DNA of 64,000 nt from NCBI RefSeq assembly GCF_003326795.1, contig NZ_JPWI01000001.1, positions 1 through 64,000 on the forward strand. Direction: 5' to 3'. A model generated the notes under the pieces. The model saw only the letters and a list, made by a program, of their open reading frames with translations. It searched no databases and was not told the origin of the DNA. A program made the translations under genes and the position numbers. Origin of the DNA: Thalassospira profundimaris (GTDB lineage: Bacteria; Pseudomonadota; Alphaproteobacteria; Rhodospirillales; Thalassospiraceae). Positions 24,876 to 32,437 of this stretch are shown piece by piece. Position 1 is the first letter of the stretch; each line of letters starts with the position of its first letter.

Positions 24876-25475
24876 ATGACATTTGCATCCGCACATCACA
24901 CATCTGCTGACTGGCAGGCCCTTCGCAAGGGCCTGCACAGATTTGTGCAAAATCGCATTCCCCGACATGCGGTTGAGGATGTGGTCTCGGACATTCTCGA
25001 AGCCATCATTCGCAACAAGCAAACACTCGGTGCTGCATCCAACCCGACCGCCTGGATATATGCCGTTGCACGCAGCAAGGTTGTTGATTTTTACCGCAAA
25101 CAGAGCCTCGAACGCACCGCATTGCAGAATTTGCAGACAGACCTGACGCGCGATCTGGCACATACTTCTCCGGACAGTGCCGGTCTCCATGACTGTCTGG
25201 CTGCCTTCATTTCGGAACTAACCGATGCAGATCAGAAAATTCTCAGGGAAATAGATCTGGAACAAAAACGTCAGACTGACTTTGCGGCTCAGCACGACAT
25301 TGCTCTGCCCACGGTAAAATCCCGTGTTCAGCGTGCCCGAAGGCGTTTGCGTGATCGACTGATCGCATGTTGCCCGAATGGAAGCACACATAAATGCGAC
25401 CACTCATGTCCGGACTCCGGATCATGTGACGCGAACCAGTCAGAAATTTCCGAGGGAAAAGCTTGGAGCGGGTGA
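24876..25475 (+). CDS. SigZ-like ECF sigma factor with cysteine-rich tail
   Basis: A 199-residue ECF-type sigma factor: region 2 at about 15-80 (VEDVVSDILEAIIRN, TAWIYAVARSKVVDFYRK) and region 4 at about 110-163 (LTDADQKILREIDLEQ, LPTVKSRVQRARRRLRDRL). The tail has five cysteines at 165, 166, 174, 178 and 184, unusual for a sigma factor and suited to binding thiophilic metals. No anti-sigma gene is adjacent. It follows the ArsI/CadI gene by six bases. The last 12 bases overlap the tRNA-Gly gene on the other strand. Confidence 0.82.
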   Translation: MTFASAHHTSADWQALRKGLHRFVQNRIPRHAVEDVVSDILEAIIRNKQTLGAASNPTAWIYAVARSKVVDFYRKQSLERTALQNLQTDLTRDLAHTSPDSAGLHDCLAAFISELTDADQKILREIDLEQKRQTDFAAQHDIALPTVKSRVQRARRRLRDRLIACCPNGSTHKCDHSCPDSGSCDANQSEISEGKAWSG

Positions 25476-25537
25476 AGGGAATCGAACCCTCGTATGCAGC
25501 TTGGGAAGCTGCCGTTCTACCATTGAACTACACCCGC
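25464..25537 (-). tRNA. tRNA-Gly (anticodon CCC)
   Basis: Read on the minus strand: acceptor arm GCGGGTG with CACCCGC, D arm TTCAATGGTAGAA, anticodon stem GCAGC/GCTGC enclosing TTCCCAA (anticodon CCC), T arm GAGGGTTCGATTCCCTT, discriminator T and an encoded CCA (25464-25466). The 3' end overlaps the last codons of the sigma-factor gene on the opposite strand. Confidence 0.95.
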
Positions 25538-25771: not shown

Positions 25772-26251
25772 TTAGCGGGCGCGTTCGGAAATCGGTGCGT
25801 TGACCGACAGTTCCATATCCCACGGGAAGTAGATCCAGGTATCTTGCGATACTTCGGTGACAAAGCTGTCAACGATTTCACGACCAAGCGGCTTGGCGTA
25901 AACCGTTGCGAAATGTGCGTGCGGAAGCTTTTCACGGACCGCCTTGGCGGTTTTGCCGGTATCGACCAGATCGTCGATAATCAGCATGTCCGTTCCATCA
26001 CCTTCGATGCCTTTAAGCCATTCAAGATCGCCACGGCTTTTGTCAGAGTAGCTGCGCACACAAACCGTATCAATCAGGCGAATATCAAGTTCGCGCGCGA
26101 TGATCGCCGCAGGAACCAGACCGCCACGGGTAATTGCGATAATGCCTTTGTACGGGCCTTTTTCCAAAAGACGCCATGCCAGTGCACGTGCATCGCGATG
26201 CATCTGTTCCCAGGAAACCGGGAAACCTTTGTTATAAGGAGCTTCGCTCAC
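25772..26251 (-). CDS. gpt: Xanthine-guanine phosphoribosyltransferase
   Basis: A purine-salvage enzyme of 159 residues that converts guanine and xanthine with PRPP to GMP and XMP. The PRPP motif is [16 protein letters not shown]; other features are [19 protein letters not shown] at the N-terminus, [20 protein letters not shown], and the C-terminal [12 protein letters not shown] place the start at a GTG (26249-26251) preceded by AGGAG, giving the usual length; an ATG at 26299 would add a hydrophobic, non-family extension. Confidence 0.93.
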
Positions 26252-26431
26252 AAGAATTCTCCTGCGCCAGATCAGTTCGCCAAAACGGTTAGCCATCACA
26301 TTGTGAACGATACCAGACCGTCAAGACAGGGACTCACAAATTTAAGGCGCTTAACTACGCCTTGTTTGCTCATGTGGCAAGAGCCGCGGTCGCTTAACGA
26401 TATCCACCATTGATCTGACGATAGCATGAAA

Positions 26432-28330
26432 TCAAATAGTTGCCGATTTTTCAGCAGCTTCGCCTGCATTTTCCGGCTGTGCTGTGTGACCGTCATCAAG
26501 CGCTTCTTCTTCCTGCGCAAACAATGAACGTACAAACGGAATGTAACTTAGCATTCCCAAACCGATGACGGCCAACCAGTTGACCGGTGCAATAGACAGA
26601 ACAGACAGTTCCAGAACAATCGCACCAAAGGTTACAATGGCGACACTCACAACCAAATCGATCAGACAAATCAGCAACATAAACCAATTACGTGCTAATT
26701 GACGCATTTCCGGATCAAGGCACTCGGCCCAGTGCTGCTCCGACGTCCGATTCCTTAACCAGACGCCAGCAACATTTGGCATGCGGGGAATAACCCTCAT
26801 CATCGACACAACCACCGACAATTTATTCCTGATTGTCAGCCGGCAGTATTCCCAAGGATGACATTCCCTGTCACTCGCAACACTTGGCTGCGGTAGCGAC
26901 GGAAATGACTGACGCGCAATCTTGGCCAGACCAAAACGCAGGAAAATAATGATCATCAGGGTTGTAAGTTCGATGAGGTCAGCTGTCAGCCAGGAGCTGT
27001 ATGTTGCCTTATCCGAAAGGTAGCTGGAGCCATTGCTCAGGAGGTTTTCCAAAGCCATCGCATGTATGTAAACCCCGGGAATATCGGTATCGAGCGTTGG
27101 AGGACGAACAACGTCCTGGAACCCCTGAAGGTTCTGACCATACATAACGATACGGTCTTTGAAATTCTCCACCCAGCGACCAGCAGACGGCGTATCCCGA
27201 AAAACCTGCTCTGCAGAAATTGTATGGAATGGCGAACAATTTACGTCAGCCCGATTACTGAAACCAAACAGCACTGCCAGGTTTCCAATCACACGTTTGA
27301 ACGCATCCTCATCCGTGTATTGCGGCCCGCATTCATATGGCGGAATAGCATTCCCGTGCTGGTCATATGCTTTTTTCCACTCTGAATAATCGGCCTGCCT
27401 GTCGGGCCACGACAGCCACATTGGTCGGTCCAGTAATTCATCGCGCCATGCAAGCCATGAAGACTTGTCTGTCTTCGCAGGCATGATGAGTGACTGATCA
27501 CATTTCCAGCCACGTTCAACTGATTGCGCACGTTCCTTGCCGGTGCATAAATGCTGATAGATTGTTGTTGCGGCTGCGGTAATACCTGAAACGTCACACC
27601 CGCGAAGATTCCCGTTACCTGTGCGGCGCATAACAGCATCATCGCAAAGAGGCAGATCTTCCGCGTTCTGTATCTCTGCGATACGGCCCGCATTTCGCAG
27701 TTCCGGGGCAAGCTGGTATGACAATGCCCTGATATCGGCCTGACCACGCAAATCACCCCAACCTGCAACCAGCGTCACATAGGGTGCAAGCTCTGACAAA
27801 ACGGCGTGATGCTGATAGAAATTCAGTGCCCCTGCTTGCAAGTAAACAGGTATATCCATCATCTGATACATCTGAAGTGTGCCGACCAGCATCGTCAAGC
27901 TGTCGTCATGCACATAGAGTTCCGGCATCCATTCATCCGATTGCGCGCCTGCTGGTGGTGCAGCACGCCGGTCCCGGAATGTAAAATCGATGAACAGTGC
28001 CTTTGGCTTGGCTGTCAGCAGCTTTCGCAGAACTTTGGCATGCAAACCATACACGGCCGGCCAACTTGATTTCAAACCTGCCAGTGATTCGTCATCAAGC
28101 AAAATGACACCAATGTCATCCACCTGCTCGGCAGGGTACAAGGGCGCACCGACCGTCCTGTTAAAAACGGCATAACTGTATTCATCGACGGCATCGCCAA
28201 TAGCATCCGGCTCAATCAGCAAAATGAGCGCGGCAAGCACCACGTTTATAACGCCCCACCAGAACGGCTTCAGACGGGCAACTTTGAATTCCTTGTGGTG
28301 CTGCCCGTCTGGTGTGTCTTTCTGCACCAT
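26432..28330 (-). CDS. CHASE2-domain membrane protein without output domain
   Basis: A 632-residue membrane protein. TM1 lies at about 24-41, followed by a large extracytoplasmic CHASE2-type sensor (about 60-440; DDIGVILLDDESL, LLTAKPKALFIDFTFRD, IVMYGQNLQGFQDVV, TDIPGVYIHAMALENLL). After it come TM2 (about 450-473), a basic cytoplasmic loop of about 75 residues, two or more helices at about 548-600 and an acidic tail. CHASE2 proteins usually end in a kinase, cyclase or GGDEF domain; here there is none. The start codon abuts the stop of the upstream M48 gene, the third of a tight three-gene operon. Partner-mediated signalling is an inference. Confidence 0.8.
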   Translation of the reverse strand: MVQKDTPDGQHHKEFKVARLKPFWWGVINVVLAALILLIEPDAIGDAVDEYSYAVFNRTVGAPLYPAEQVDDIGVILLDDESLAGLKSSWPAVYGLHAKVLRKLLTAKPKALFIDFTFRDRRAAPPAGAQSDEWMPELYVHDDSLTMLVGTLQMYQMMDIPVYLQAGALNFYQHHAVLSELAPYVTLVAGWGDLRGQADIRALSYQLAPELRNAGRIAEIQNAEDLPLCDDAVMRRTGNGNLRGCDVSGITAAATTIYQHLCTGKERAQSVERGWKCDQSLIMPAKTDKSSWLAWRDELLDRPMWLSWPDRQADYSEWKKAYDQHGNAIPPYECGPQYTDEDAFKRVIGNLAVLFGFSNRADVNCSPFHTISAEQVFRDTPSAGRWVENFKDRIVMYGQNLQGFQDVVRPPTLDTDIPGVYIHAMALENLLSNGSSYLSDKATYSSWLTADLIELTTLMIIIFLRFGLAKIARQSFPSLPQPSVASDRECHPWEYCRLTIRNKLSVVVSMMRVIPRMPNVAGVWLRNRTSEQHWAECLDPEMRQLARNWFMLLICLIDLVVSVAIVTFGAIVLELSVLSIAPVNWLAVIGLGMLSYIPFVRSLFAQEEEALDDGHTAQPENAGEAAEKSATI

Positions 28331-29800
28331 TTACATACCAGCCATTTGGCCGACCGGGGATTGTCCCGCACACATTGCACGCTGCTGCGGATACCGTGTA
28401 ACGCAACCGATAAGAAGTTCATTCTCGCGCACCTTGTTGCCGCTTGCTTTCACAAGCGGGTACATGAACCGGTAAGCTTCAAGAGGCCAGTCATAATAGG
28501 TCGCAACCTGCTCTACCCGATCAAAAGCGGTTTCAACATTGCCAAGCGATTTTAGTATTTCAGCCCGCTTCATCTCGACAGGCAGGGCAAGAACTTCGCC
28601 GTTTCCAATCAGGTCAATGTTCTGAGCAGCTTTTTTGAGGTTGCCCTGACGTTCGCGAACCTTGGCAAATGCCCAGCGTGTATAGGGATGATTTGTCGTC
28701 ACACCGCTGACTGCCTTGCGCGCATCGGCTTCAAGAGCCCTGAAATCGATATCACTGTCGTCGCGCTGCAACGTCTGCAAGATTTCACCAGCAATCCGGT
28801 AGCTTTCCAGTGCCTGTTTGTTCCGCTCAACAACAGAATCGAAAGCTTCCTTATGGATCATCCGGCTTGCGCGTTCCGGCATATATTCACGCATCCCGTA
28901 AGCAAAGATTTCTTCTGCGCGTTCTGCCGCGTCATCGTGCTTGGCTGCCAATTCTTGCTGGACCGTATTGACGGCATTGCCAAGTTCAGAAATGAACTGG
29001 TTGAACAGGGCATTGTCCTGGCCTTTCGGCTGAAATTGTGCCTGAAGAAACAGCTCAAGCTGATTTCGGGTAACCTGATAACTCGCACCAAATTTATCTT
29101 CTGCCTCTTTCGCAACCTCAAAATAACCCGATGCCCCCTTTGGCTGGTATCCGGCTTTGACCATCAAATCCAGGCCGAGATAATCAGCTACCCGCTCCTG
29201 GCTGCGATCCCAGTTAGGCAGCAACAGATCACGCAAAATCAAATCACTGCCATACATCTGGCCAGCTTTACGAAGCAAATCGCTTTGGTCACTCGCATTC
29301 CCAAGCGCCATATCAGCAGCCGTCAGAAGATAAGGACGCAGTACAGAAAACAGATTCTCCGGTGTATGCTGCATCAAAACATGGCTGTATTCGTGCGCGA
29401 CAAGAAAGGCCAGTTCATCTTCGCTGCGCAGATATTCAAATGCAGAATGATAAAGGAACACAACCCCTTCACGTGCCGCATGGGCACCCGGACCCGAATT
29501 GCCAATCAGAACAATCTCGGCTTGCGGTGCTCCGGCCGGAGCCACGGCAATGATCTTGTCGAGCACCCCTTGTGCATATTGCTCAAGATCATCAATCGGA
29601 GCCTCTCCGATTGACTTGGCCATTACAGCCGTTTTTGCTGAGTGAATTTCCTGAACCGAGTAAGTCTTTGGTGTCGGCACCGAAACAGTGTCGATGAATT
29701 TTCCTTTTTCGGGAATGTCACCCGAAAGCAATTGCATATCTTCGACGCAACCGGTCAGTGCAACCGCACCAACCAGCGAAATCAAGCCGAGTTTCTTCAT
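28331..29800 (-). CDS. M48 family metallopeptidase lipoprotein, BepA-like
   Basis: A 489-residue lipoprotein: signal with lipobox ending at Cys18 (ALTGC), then an M48 domain with zinc motif HEYSH in LVAHEYSHVLMQH and the third-ligand helix SQERVADYLGLD. A long helical C-terminal half (about 330-489) looks TPR-like. The layout resembles BepA/YfgC, an outer-membrane quality-control protease. It starts two bases after the stop of the small exported-protein gene, with AAGGGGA as ribosome-binding site, and its stop touches the CHASE2 start. It probably works in the periplasm with both. Confidence 0.82.
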   Translation of the reverse strand: MKKLGLISLVGAVALTGCVEDMQLLSGDIPEKGKFIDTVSVPTPKTYSVQEIHSAKTAVMAKSIGEAPIDDLEQYAQGVLDKIIAVAPAGAPQAEIVLIGNSGPGAHAAREGVVFLYHSAFEYLRSEDELAFLVAHEYSHVLMQHTPENLFSVLRPYLLTAADMALGNASDQSDLLRKAGQMYGSDLILRDLLLPNWDRSQERVADYLGLDLMVKAGYQPKGASGYFEVAKEAEDKFGASYQVTRNQLELFLQAQFQPKGQDNALFNQFISELGNAVNTVQQELAAKHDDAAERAEEIFAYGMREYMPERASRMIHKEAFDSVVERNKQALESYRIAGEILQTLQRDDSDIDFRALEADARKAVSGVTTNHPYTRWAFAKVRERQGNLKKAAQNIDLIGNGEVLALPVEMKRAEILKSLGNVETAFDRVEQVATYYDWPLEAYRFMYPLVKASGNKVRENELLIGCVTRYPQQRAMCAGQSPVGQMAGM

Positions 29801-29802
29801 TT

Positions 29803-30213
29803 TTATTTCCCCTTAGCCGAAACGCAGTCTGCGCCTGCACCCCGTGTTCCTTTACCGCCCAGTGTTCCGATGTCTCCCCCGCAGACGACCGGACTACGTG
29901 CAACTTCCTTGCCCTGAACCACAATCATGTCGTCAGGGACCCAATAGATTTCTTTTTCGTTGAGAAAGCGGATCTGATACGCGCCAAAATTCTGACTGTC
30001 GTGAGAATAGAAAACCACCTGATCCGGGAAGTTTTCGCCCAGTATCATTCTGTCGCATGTCCGGGTTTTCCCGCCTGAATCGCACATAACAACCGGAAAC
30101 GAAGGATGGGTAACAGTAACCCCGCGCACTTCTTCATCCTGCGCAAATACACTGTTTCCGCTGAGCGCGAAAATGGACGCCGCAACGAAGCCAAACAGAT
30201 ATAATTTTGCCAC
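29803..30213 (-). CDS. Small exported cysteine-containing protein, unknown
   Basis: A 136-residue protein with a clear signal peptide (about 1-24, cleavage after VFA). The mature part has four cysteines (VVMCDSGG, TRTCDRM, PVVCGGD and ADC near the end) that could form two disulfides, and a Gly-rich C-terminus ending in Lys-Gly-Lys. I do not recognise the family. It is the first gene of the three-gene operon with the M48 peptidase and CHASE2 protein, so it may be the ligand, substrate or cofactor of that system. Confidence 0.65.
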   Translation of the reverse strand: MAKLYLFGFVAASIFALSGNSVFAQDEEVRGVTVTHPSFPVVMCDSGGKTRTCDRMILGENFPDQVVFYSHDSQNFGAYQIRFLNEKEIYWVPDDMIVVQGKEVARSPVVCGGDIGTLGGKGTRGAGADCVSAKGK

Positions 30214-30394
30214 CCAGAAAATCCCCCACCGTGCATGTCAAATGCAACTGACCCGTGAGGAACATCATGCATCTTCGAAAAAGATGATGTAACTATTCGA
30301 AAGGGATTTTATCCTACCCATTCAGGTAGTTACGCCCCATCGAACATTTAGGGAAACCTGATAAATATCGCCATTTCCCGACAATTCAGTTCTT

Positions 30395-31981
30395 TTAAAC
30401 TGTCATTTCGTCACGTTGCCGCGCCTGAAGAAGCGTTGCAAAATCGCCCGAAAGTTTTTTAACAGGCACCGACCAGTCGGCCGGTGCCTGTTGCCGGTAA
30501 ATCCGCATGGTCGGATACCAGGGGCTGTCCGACCGGTCGACCATCCAGCGCCAATCTGTCGTAAACAGCTGCAACATCCAGACCGGAACGCCGAGCGCAC
30601 CGGCAAGATGGGCAGGTGAACTATCAATCGAAATCACCAGATCCATCGCCTTCATCAAGGCCGCGCTGTCTCCGAAATCATGAATATGATCGCCAAGGTC
30701 GGTCACAAACGCATTCAGGCCCAGCTTATCAAGATCGGCACGCCGATCATCAATCTGGAAACTGTAAAACGCAGCACCCTTTGCCGAAAGGATCGGAAGC
30801 AACATCTCGATCGGACACGACCGGTCACGCGGATTGAGTTTCCCCGCCCAGATCAACCCGACCTTAAGAACCGTCCCCGGTGTTGGCGCCAGTCGGACAT
30901 GTTTGCCCGGCGGCGGCGTCAAATAGGGATCAGCCGATATTTTCAAAAGCGCATCGCCGCCGATCCCCATGACATGGGGCAAACTCAAAAGCGGAACATG
31001 CACATCAAATTCCGGAAGTGGCCGGCCTTTTTCAACCAGCGTTCCCACACCGGCAACGGTGCGCATGATCGGCAATAATTCCTTGCGACATTCAAGGATG
31101 ACATGGCCCGCTTTCCTGGCCACCAGTGGCACAAAGCGGGCAAACTGGATCATGTCGCCAAAGCCCTGCTCTGCACGCAGCAAAATACGTTTGCCACGAA
31201 GATCGGTTTTGCCATCCCATTCCGGGGCCGTATCAAGCGGACGGATCGGATTATCGGCCAGTTTACGCCGCGTCTCATATCCGGCCCAGCCGTCGGCATA
31301 GTTCCCCAGTGCCAGATGTGCCAATGCCTTGTCCCAATTGGCGTCGACATAATCGGGATCAATCGCCAATGCCTGATCGAAATGCCTTAGCGCATCTTCA
31401 AACCGGTTCAGATCACGATAGACAAGCCCCATATTGAAGGTATGCGACTTGATGCTGTCATCAAGTTCAAGCGCCTTCTTGTGTGCGACAATGGCCTCGT
31501 CAAAACGCATCATTTCGCGCAGGCAATTGCCCATATTCGACCATAACCCGGCATTTTCCGGTCGCAGTTCAGCGGCACGACGATAAGCCATCAGGGCCGC
31601 TTCAAACTTTTTGCTGCGCCGTAAGGCAACACCAAGATTGTTCCAGACATCGGGTTGTTGGGGGTTCTGGCGAAGAGACGCGCTATACAGGCGGATGGCA
31701 TCATCAATCTGTCCCGCCTGATGGGCGGCCAGACCACGCTGGAACAGATCATTGATGACCCGGCGCTTTTGGGCGACTTGTGCAGCGTCTGCCATGTTTG
31801 CCTGCGATTCCGGCGCGACATCCCCCCCGGGAGAAGGAGATCCTTTGCCCGTCGCCTTTGACGCCGTCGCAATTTCCGGATGGGGCACCGAAGCGCCTGA
31901 CGGAGTGGCCTTTTTAACACTGGCTGATTTTCCGCCCTTCTTGCCGGACCGCTTTTTGGTTGTTGTCGCAGATTTCGCCAT
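30395..31981 (-). CDS. TPR protein fused to a glycosyltransferase-like domain
   Basis: A 528-residue cytoplasmic protein. Residues 1-70 form a Lys/Ser/Ala-rich low-complexity tail (KKRSGKKGGKS). TPR units follow at about 75-240 (DVWNNLGVALRRSKKFEAAL, GLWSNMGNCLREMMRFDEAI, HTFNMGLVYRDLNRFEDAL). The C-terminal half has GT-B motifs with VGLIWAGKLNPRDRS and the donor-site region DLVISIDSSPAHLAGALG. Similar proteins modify flagellin or surface structures, but the acceptor here is unknown. The ATG at 31981 has GAGGGGA upstream; the frame is open to 32056. Confidence 0.82.
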   Translation of the reverse strand: MAKSATTTKKRSGKKGGKSASVKKATPSGASVPHPEIATASKATGKGSPSPGGDVAPESQANMADAAQVAQKRRVINDLFQRGLAAHQAGQIDDAIRLYSASLRQNPQQPDVWNNLGVALRRSKKFEAALMAYRRAAELRPENAGLWSNMGNCLREMMRFDEAIVAHKKALELDDSIKSHTFNMGLVYRDLNRFEDALRHFDQALAIDPDYVDANWDKALAHLALGNYADGWAGYETRRKLADNPIRPLDTAPEWDGKTDLRGKRILLRAEQGFGDMIQFARFVPLVARKAGHVILECRKELLPIMRTVAGVGTLVEKGRPLPEFDVHVPLLSLPHVMGIGGDALLKISADPYLTPPPGKHVRLAPTPGTVLKVGLIWAGKLNPRDRSCPIEMLLPILSAKGAAFYSFQIDDRRADLDKLGLNAFVTDLGDHIHDFGDSAALMKAMDLVISIDSSPAHLAGALGVPVWMLQLFTTDWRWMVDRSDSPWYPTMRIYRQQAPADWSVPVKKLSGDFATLLQARQRDEMTV

Positions 31982-32437
31982 TTTGTTCCCCTCACGCCCC
32001 GCCCGATGCCTGACCGGAGCAACCCCGCTTACCAAAGTATGAAAGAATGAATCCACAACTCATATATTTTGAATCGCTGCGGCACTTTCACATAAGCAGA
32101 TTAGTATATTTTACCAAAAAACACCTTACCAATAGGCGTATTTGTCGTTTGTCATGCACGAAACCGAATATTCCGCAAAACCGTCGTTTCTTGTTTCGAT
32201 AATGTGACTGTATGGGGTAGCCTCAATGGCAGAAGAGACGCTTTTTGCTTCAACTTCGACGTCCCCACGCGGTAAAGTGGATAAAATATAAAAACGCAGA
32301 ATGATCCTGATTTCTTAAAATTCAGGAAAATAATCTGCCAATACCCTGTCAGGCCTTCGCAAAATAACAGCGGCGAAATGTGCGGCAGAAAATCTAGGGA
32401 AGCGATTAAAAGCCTTTGAAGGAGTGGGAGACCATAA
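31982..32437. other. AT-rich intergenic region between divergent genes
   Basis: Separates the TPR-glycosyltransferase gene (minus) from the chemoreceptor gene (plus). It must hold both promoters, but I see no clear -35/-10 pair or flagellar-sigma site. A short imperfect inverted repeat, TCCTGATTT with AATTCAGGA, lies near 32308-32333. AAGGAGTGGGAG at about 32419 is a strong ribosome-binding site for the chemoreceptor. Confidence 0.5.

Follow-up and report, generated by a model that had tools for sequence, protein, structure and literature searches.

A conserved three-gene unit of a small exported protein, an M48 metalloprotease, and a CHASE2 protein without an output domain in Thalassospira profundimaris

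RESULTS

Three adjacent genes and their products

We analyzed a 64,000-nucleotide stretch of DNA from Thalassospira profundimaris (NCBI RefSeq assembly GCF_003326795.1, contig NZ_JPWI01000001.1, positions 1 to 64,000; hereafter, the window), which carries three adjacent genes for a small exported protein, an M48 metallopeptidase, and a CHASE2 membrane protein without an output domain (Table 1). The conservation of this three-gene unit, including in distant bacteria, is established. The three open reading frames (ORFs) are as a preliminary description of the locus had placed them, all on the minus strand; 2 bases separate the small gene from the M48 gene and none separates the M48 gene from the CHASE2 gene, the TAA of the former abutting the ATG of the latter. 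Ribosome-site-like sequences were read 5' of the small gene (GGGGGA) and 5' of the M48 gene (AAGGGG, within the end of the small gene). It had been concluded from the spacing that the proteins are probably made in fixed proportion, but tight gene spacing does not imply this.

Table 1. Features of the three-gene locus in the window
Feature	Positions	Strand	Basis and conservation
Cassette interval	26300..30394	-	Bounded by a TPR-glycosyltransferase-like gene (30395-32056) and a phosphoribosyltransferase gene (25772-26299)
Small exported protein gene	29803..30213	-	136 amino acids, GTG start; ORF; N-terminus resembling a signal peptide; core possibly SH3-like
C-terminal Cys loop of the small protein, C111 to C130, RGAG between	29824..29883	-	Cys pair in 30/31 aligned proteins
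M48 metallopeptidase gene with lipobox and TPR-like C-terminal half	28331..29800	-	489 amino acids, ATG start; ORF and Pfam
Lipobox LTGC, C18 followed by Val (no Asp at +2)	29747..29758	-	Simple lipobox pattern in 26/32 aligned proteins as called
HExxH zinc motif, H136-H140	29381..29395	-	H136 in 31/32; E137 and H140 in 32/32
Presumed third zinc ligand E202, with D206	29183..29197	-	Both in 32/32
Probable active-site plug H288-x5-R294	28919..28939	-	H288 in 28/32 (Tyr in 4); R294 in 32/32
C-terminal Cys pair of the M48 family, C466 and C477	28370..28405	-	32/32; absent in three non-trio M48 proteins checked
CHASE2 membrane protein gene without output domain	26432..28330	-	632 amino acids, ATG start; ORF and Pfam
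CHASE2 domain, periplasmic by inferred topology	26942..28189	-	Pfam match

The CHASE2 protein of the window matched CHASE2 (PF05226) at 67 bits (cut-off, 26.3) over residues 48-463 and contained no other Pfam domain. One N-terminal hydrophobic segment (residues 26-44) and three C-terminal ones (446-464, 550-568, and 576-594) were found; the counts of such segments in relatives vary with the crude threshold. Thirty CHASE2 proteins were aligned, a set that leaves out a CHASE2-cyclase gene at locus L072 as not of this type. All 30 matched PF05226 at E ≤0.01, that of locus L081 at 25.3 bits, just below the cut-off, and in none of them was a kinase, cyclase, GGDEF, or other Pfam output domain detected C-terminal to CHASE2. 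A frameshifted fragment with a lost output domain, which the preliminary description had raised, is ruled out by this result, and the outputless form is general in the family. A CHASE2 protein without output, called unusual in that description, is so relative to CHASE2 proteins at large but is standard within this family. Besides M1, residues P91, P109, A254, W308, D406, H423, and A424 were invariant in all 30 sequences, and all of them lie within the CHASE2 part. At one locus (L073:8460-10682), the N-terminus of the CHASE2 protein, before its first hydrophobic segment, resembles the small exported protein (15.7 bits, compared with ≤1.1 bits for four control N-termini), a likeness that hints at a small-protein/CHASE2 fusion.

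The M48 protein matched Peptidase_M48 (PF01435) at 59.4 bits (cut-off, 20.3) over residues 75-297 and no other family at cut-off. The profile of its family (A9) aligned with Escherichia coli BepA across both the peptidase and TPR parts (E 3e-25). This whole-length relation, together with the lipobox, bears out the BepA-like lipoprotein protease proposed earlier, and the protein scored 32.4 bits against the NCBIfam BepA equivalog model (NF052400), below its cut-off of 570. In the window protein, a longer distance separates the plug-like motif from the zinc motif than in BepA, and the BepA Pro is missing; the His keeps the spacing of BepA to the Arg in 28 of the 32 proteins, and judged by this spacing, the two motifs are probably equivalent. 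A trio-type M48 protein at L081:5285-7081 has Leu in place of the first zinc His and is possibly an inactive protease. Records annotate the subfamily only as "M48 family metalloprotease" or "metallopeptidase."

No credible Pfam family was found for the small protein, either for the window protein or for the members of its family, and in remote loci the family profiles detect a gene in the corresponding position. Its start is signal-peptide-like, and its Cys pair usually encloses RGxG or a variant. The pair is missing in the protein of locus L035 and likewise in its near copy at L036, which is outside the 31 aligned proteins. The account of the small Cys-containing protein in the preliminary description needs two corrections: the gene has a GTG start, and of four cysteines only C111 and C130 are conserved. 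An SH3-like fold is suggested only by weak matches, namely SH3_3 in 1 of the 31 proteins (E 0.026) and an SH3 domain as the best match in the PDB (E 0.047); Peripla_BP_3, an unrelated family, reaches 0.0047 in one member.

Presence of the cassette within the genus

Each of the three proteins was searched against the same 60 genomes (own included), of which 29 belong to the genus Thalassospira. The window-type trio was found in 10 of the 29, with the genes adjacent and in identical order in every case. The small gene was matched in exactly those ten genomes and in one other genome of the order, where the copy has three internal stops. Eight of the 19 genus genomes without the window-type cassette were checked, and in all eight the TPR-glycosyltransferase-like and phosphoribosyltransferase genes are neighbors, 109-211 bp apart by match ends. 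This joint presence and absence, together with the empty site, indicates that the trio is gained or lost as one cassette. A remote version of the trio, in the order CHASE2-small-M48, was present in two more genus genomes (G013 and G017) and two genomes of the order (G034 and G058), and none of the 60 genomes carried both versions. Two genus genomes (L035 and L036) have no window-type cassette but carry the remote version, which lies beside carB- and greA-type genes.

The window CHASE2 protein is 81% identical to a T. povalilytica protein, and a contig search of genomes with the window protein found one locus. The own genome contains one additional CHASE2 gene (766-amino-acid frame, 218.7 bits); for the small gene, only the window copy was found in it. 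Separate, more distant M48 genes are present in the same genomes.

Conservation beyond the genus

An M48 profile built from 14 sequences was run over 385 genomes of the class Alphaproteobacteria and 398 genomes of the phylum; in this search and in that with a CHASE2 profile, up to three candidates per genome were scored. In the class, 14 other genomes reached ≥100 bits, and these were taken for inspection with three further M48 matches of 88-97 bits, G182 (90 bits) being left out. A CHASE2 gene of the window type adjoins the M48 gene in 12 of the 14; of the remaining two, the locus of G253 is truncated at the edge of its contig, and in G288 the neighbor is instead a gene for a CHASE2-guanylate cyclase, encoded on the opposite strand. 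The small gene was found in 6 of the 14 by profile and in 7 more by place and Cys motif, and L081 was ambiguous. At the three lower matches, neither a partner gene nor the C-terminal Cys pair was found.

A CHASE2 match occurs in 186 of the 385 alphaproteobacterial genomes. With the CHASE2 profile, 14 of the same genomes (own included) scored >130 bits, the next genome scored 58 bits, and an M48 gene was adjacent in 14 of 14, a recovery that is partly circular because the M48 profile had already led to 13 of them and almost all contributed rows to the CHASE2 profile. The only new genome, G436, was not used to build the profile and has all three genes. Across the phylum, the M48 profile gave four genomes outside the class at 290-305 bits (next best, 119). 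All four carry the full trio, and their small genes match their own profile at E 6e-8 to 7e-11. The order in remote trios is mostly CHASE2-small-M48.

Plasmids that carry the trio are pDA100 of Photobacterium sp. DA100, pD4M1B of Paroceanicella profunda (WP_170317823.1, WP_138576119.1, and WP_138576120.1), and pTM1 of Tistrella mobilis (WP_145978315.1, WP_014747642.1, and WP_014747643.1). The Paroceanicella small gene falls below its family profile, yet it resembles the small genes of L075 and L076. A plasmid search with the M48 protein gave four matches, among them Aeromonas caviae (66 bits, 30% of the query), and no relatives of the trio were found in viral contigs.

When the ORFs of 26 loci were compared, the M48 gene recurred in 26 and the CHASE2 gene in 22 at the BLAST limit. 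Among 21 representatives, family distances correlate with Mantel r of 0.82 (CHASE2-M48), 0.64 (CHASE2-small), and 0.66 (M48-small), the species tree not being removed. Co-occurrence, the empty site, and remote conservation rule out a chance adjacency of the three genes. These results indicate that the three families stay together in the genus and in remote genomes, as the preliminary interpretation requires.

A TIR-bearing lineage and neighboring genes

An N-terminal TIR domain was detected on CHASE2 in 1 of the 30 aligned proteins, that of G058 (TIR_2, 78.6 bits), and in addition in its relative G802 (76.1 bits). In these two related genomes, TIR-CHASE2 heads the same trio (L034:3805-9273 and L108:2858-8302), and a patatin-like gene (87 bits), 94% identical between them, lies 3' of the M48 gene. 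Convergent on it is a DUF4231/SLATT-type gene (29.1 bits in L034), whose L108 counterpart is 52% identical and at 20.5 bits is below the cut-off. Pfam gave no TIR domain in the window CHASE2 protein. Four plasmid matches of TIR-CHASE2 covered only 16-25% of the query, in its N-terminal TIR part; two of the four were inspected and set aside.

Besides the trio, no family recurred in more than 5 of the 26 loci, a count that covers the neighborhoods only. The five-locus ORF group consists of frames overlapping the M48 gene on the opposite strand, and the two groups that recur in four loci are genes of the chemotaxis-receptor type and of the LysR type. As for the linked cytoplasmic partner that the preliminary description had considered, these neighborhoods revealed none that is widely recurrent, and the TIR domain provides one in cis in a single lineage. 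A TAXI/NMT1-like solute-binding gene lies 3' of the M48 gene in the Tistrella and Paroceanicella loci (L075, L076, and L098). The sole tRNA gene found in the window, tRNA-Gly (CCC) at 25464-25537, overlaps the end of a sigma-factor-type ORF (24876-25475).

DISCUSSION

We propose, with a probability of roughly 0.45, that the trio is a conserved three-component trans-envelope protease module whose M48 protease is under the control of a CHASE2 sensor and a small adaptor. The unit, its conservation, the conserved active-site and Cys residues, and the missing output domain are observed. The CHASE2 protein would be an inner-membrane protein whose large sensor domain faces the periplasm and which has no output domain in the cytoplasm, and the small exported protein, with its terminal disulfide-type loop, would act as a soluble adaptor or cofactor between the membranes. 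The actuator would be the M48-TPR protein (in most cases a lipoprotein) at the outer membrane, inactive under a BepA-like plug over its zinc. When the state of the envelope is sensed, the CHASE2 and small proteins would open this plug, and the output would be regulated periplasmic proteolysis or chaperoning, not a cytoplasmic second messenger. The physical complex, the direction of the signal, the redox sensitivity, the outer-membrane location, and the substrate are inferred.

In published accounts of BepA, the zinc is covered by an active-site plug, HPx4R, that must move for activity (PMC7950410), and the TPR domain docks on the BAM complex (PMC8423444). Taken with CHASE2 input from outer-membrane or exported partners, this plug and docking are most economically read as the proposed bridge across the envelope. 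The preliminary interpretation as an envelope relay holds in part, in that the three-gene envelope unit is real, its M48 protein is related to BepA, and its CHASE2 protein has no output; both points on which it staked itself, conserved adjacency and an intact CHASE2 gene, came out in its favor. Its further proposals, that the unit senses envelope stress and that the peptidase processes the small protein or CHASE2, are no more than possible. A bolder form, in which a CHASE2 receptor does nothing but gate an outer-membrane M48 protease by way of a small adaptor with a redox loop, proteolysis replaces the second messenger, and one lineage has plugged in a cytoplasmic TIR effector, is doubtful.

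Several observations weigh against the gated-protease model. Proteolysis may not be general, because 4 of 32 M48 proteins have Tyr in place of the plug His and L081 has lost H136; as called, six of the 32 show no lipobox. The SH3-like label of the small protein rests on matches no better than those of chance families, and the trio counts are lower bounds because of the limit on candidates scored per genome. AlphaFold on two-sequence alignments gave two unusable models (mean pLDDT, 34.8 and 32.7). The TIR fusion and the patatin-like gene favor inward signaling or an effector function in that lineage, if not elsewhere.

Inward signaling seems unlikely. In the periplasm or at the outer membrane, the lipoprotein and the small protein would collect a signal that CHASE2 passes inside via its cytoplasmic loop (residues ~465-549) or an unlinked partner, as in known CHASE2 receptors with an outer-envelope partner. 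In published work, the CHASE2 cyclases of Sinorhizobium meliloti respond by way of NsrA, an outer-membrane protein (PMC13001267), a FecR/LysM partner lies beside CHASE2 kinases (PMC5192318), and MtxA lies beside a CHASE2 cyclase gene (PMC4439547). The N-terminal TIR domain of two genomes also fits such a role, as does G288, where the small and M48 genes are tail to tail with the CHASE2-guanylate cyclase gene; however, the cyclase gene lies on the opposite strand and possibly has nothing to do with the trio, 29 of the 30 CHASE2 proteins have no output domain, and no fourth gene is widely recurrent.

Defense systems commonly use TIR, patatin, and SLATT as effectors, and the TIR lineage is most naturally read as having an effector or defense role. 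Extended to the family, this would make CHASE2 a membrane receptor that upon attack triggers an effector, which is TIR and perhaps the patatin-like lipase in one lineage and the protease elsewhere. The TIR_2 domain with the patatin-like and DUF4231/SLATT-type neighbors in the G058/G802 lineage, the patchy cassette with its empty site, and the reported occurrence of CHASE2 in conflict-system proteins (PMC8195603) are consistent with it. By contrast, PADLOC gave no match for the window proteins, no relative was found in viral contigs, TIR is confined to one lineage, and eleven neighbor genes at nine other loci, a partial survey, are metabolic, glycosidase, beta-helix, chemotaxis, regulatory, solute-binding, or of no family. 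A defense or cell-death system is quite improbable. It is very improbable that the M48 protein is an ordinary accessory BepA paralog serving quality control of outer-membrane proteins, to which CHASE2 and the small protein would add structural anchoring and no sensing. This reading would suit the whole-length relation of the M48 protein to BepA and the separate, more distant M48 genes in the same genomes; against it, the invariant CHASE2 residues fall within the CHASE2 part, the three genes are inherited as a set, and a mere anchor should be replaceable.

What CHASE2 senses has been described as unknown (PMC5192318). A compact three-gene set that is gained or lost as a unit and has no built-in cytoplasmic output provides a clean system for the envelope role of CHASE2 and the opening of the M48 plug. 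It would also offer a testable role for a small family without a Pfam model and for a sparsely annotated M48 subfamily. In an open full-text library with few subscription journals and no bioRxiv preprints, we found no work joining CHASE2 with M48 and none on Thalassospira with "M48 family," and the CHASE2 passage of the one paper that also names a metalloprotease concerns a different system. The earlier statement that no system of this composition has been described agrees with this outcome.

Comparison with known systems

The trio resembles the CHASE2 receptor cyclases and kinases with exported partners, namely the FecR/LysM-CHASE2 kinase operon, MtxA-CHASE2 cyclase, and NsrA with CyaD1/D2/K, in that hydrophobic segments flank the sensor domain and a partner is exported or in the outer membrane (PMC5192318, PMC4439547, and PMC13001267). 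Unlike in those systems, the trio CHASE2 is without kinase, cyclase, or GGDEF, and it is accompanied by an M48 protease and by a small, unrelated protein with a Cys loop. The EACC2-caspase conflict proteins have a C-terminal CHASE2 receptor (PMC8195603), and the TIR-CHASE2 variant similarly has CHASE2 behind an N-terminal effector; however, no Pfam caspase domain was found in the 30 CHASE2 proteins, most of which are without an effector domain. With BepA (YfgC), whose own action is on LptD, and other periplasmic M48 proteases, the trio M48 protein shares the M48 domain, the zinc ligands, the plug-like His/Arg in most members, and the TPR-like C-terminal half. It differs from BepA in the lipobox of most members, the longer stretch before the plug-like motif, the invariant C-terminal Cys pair, and its fixed partners, and the window protein has no Pro after the plug His. 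The trio is a conserved combination of known domains, itself undescribed in the literature searched.

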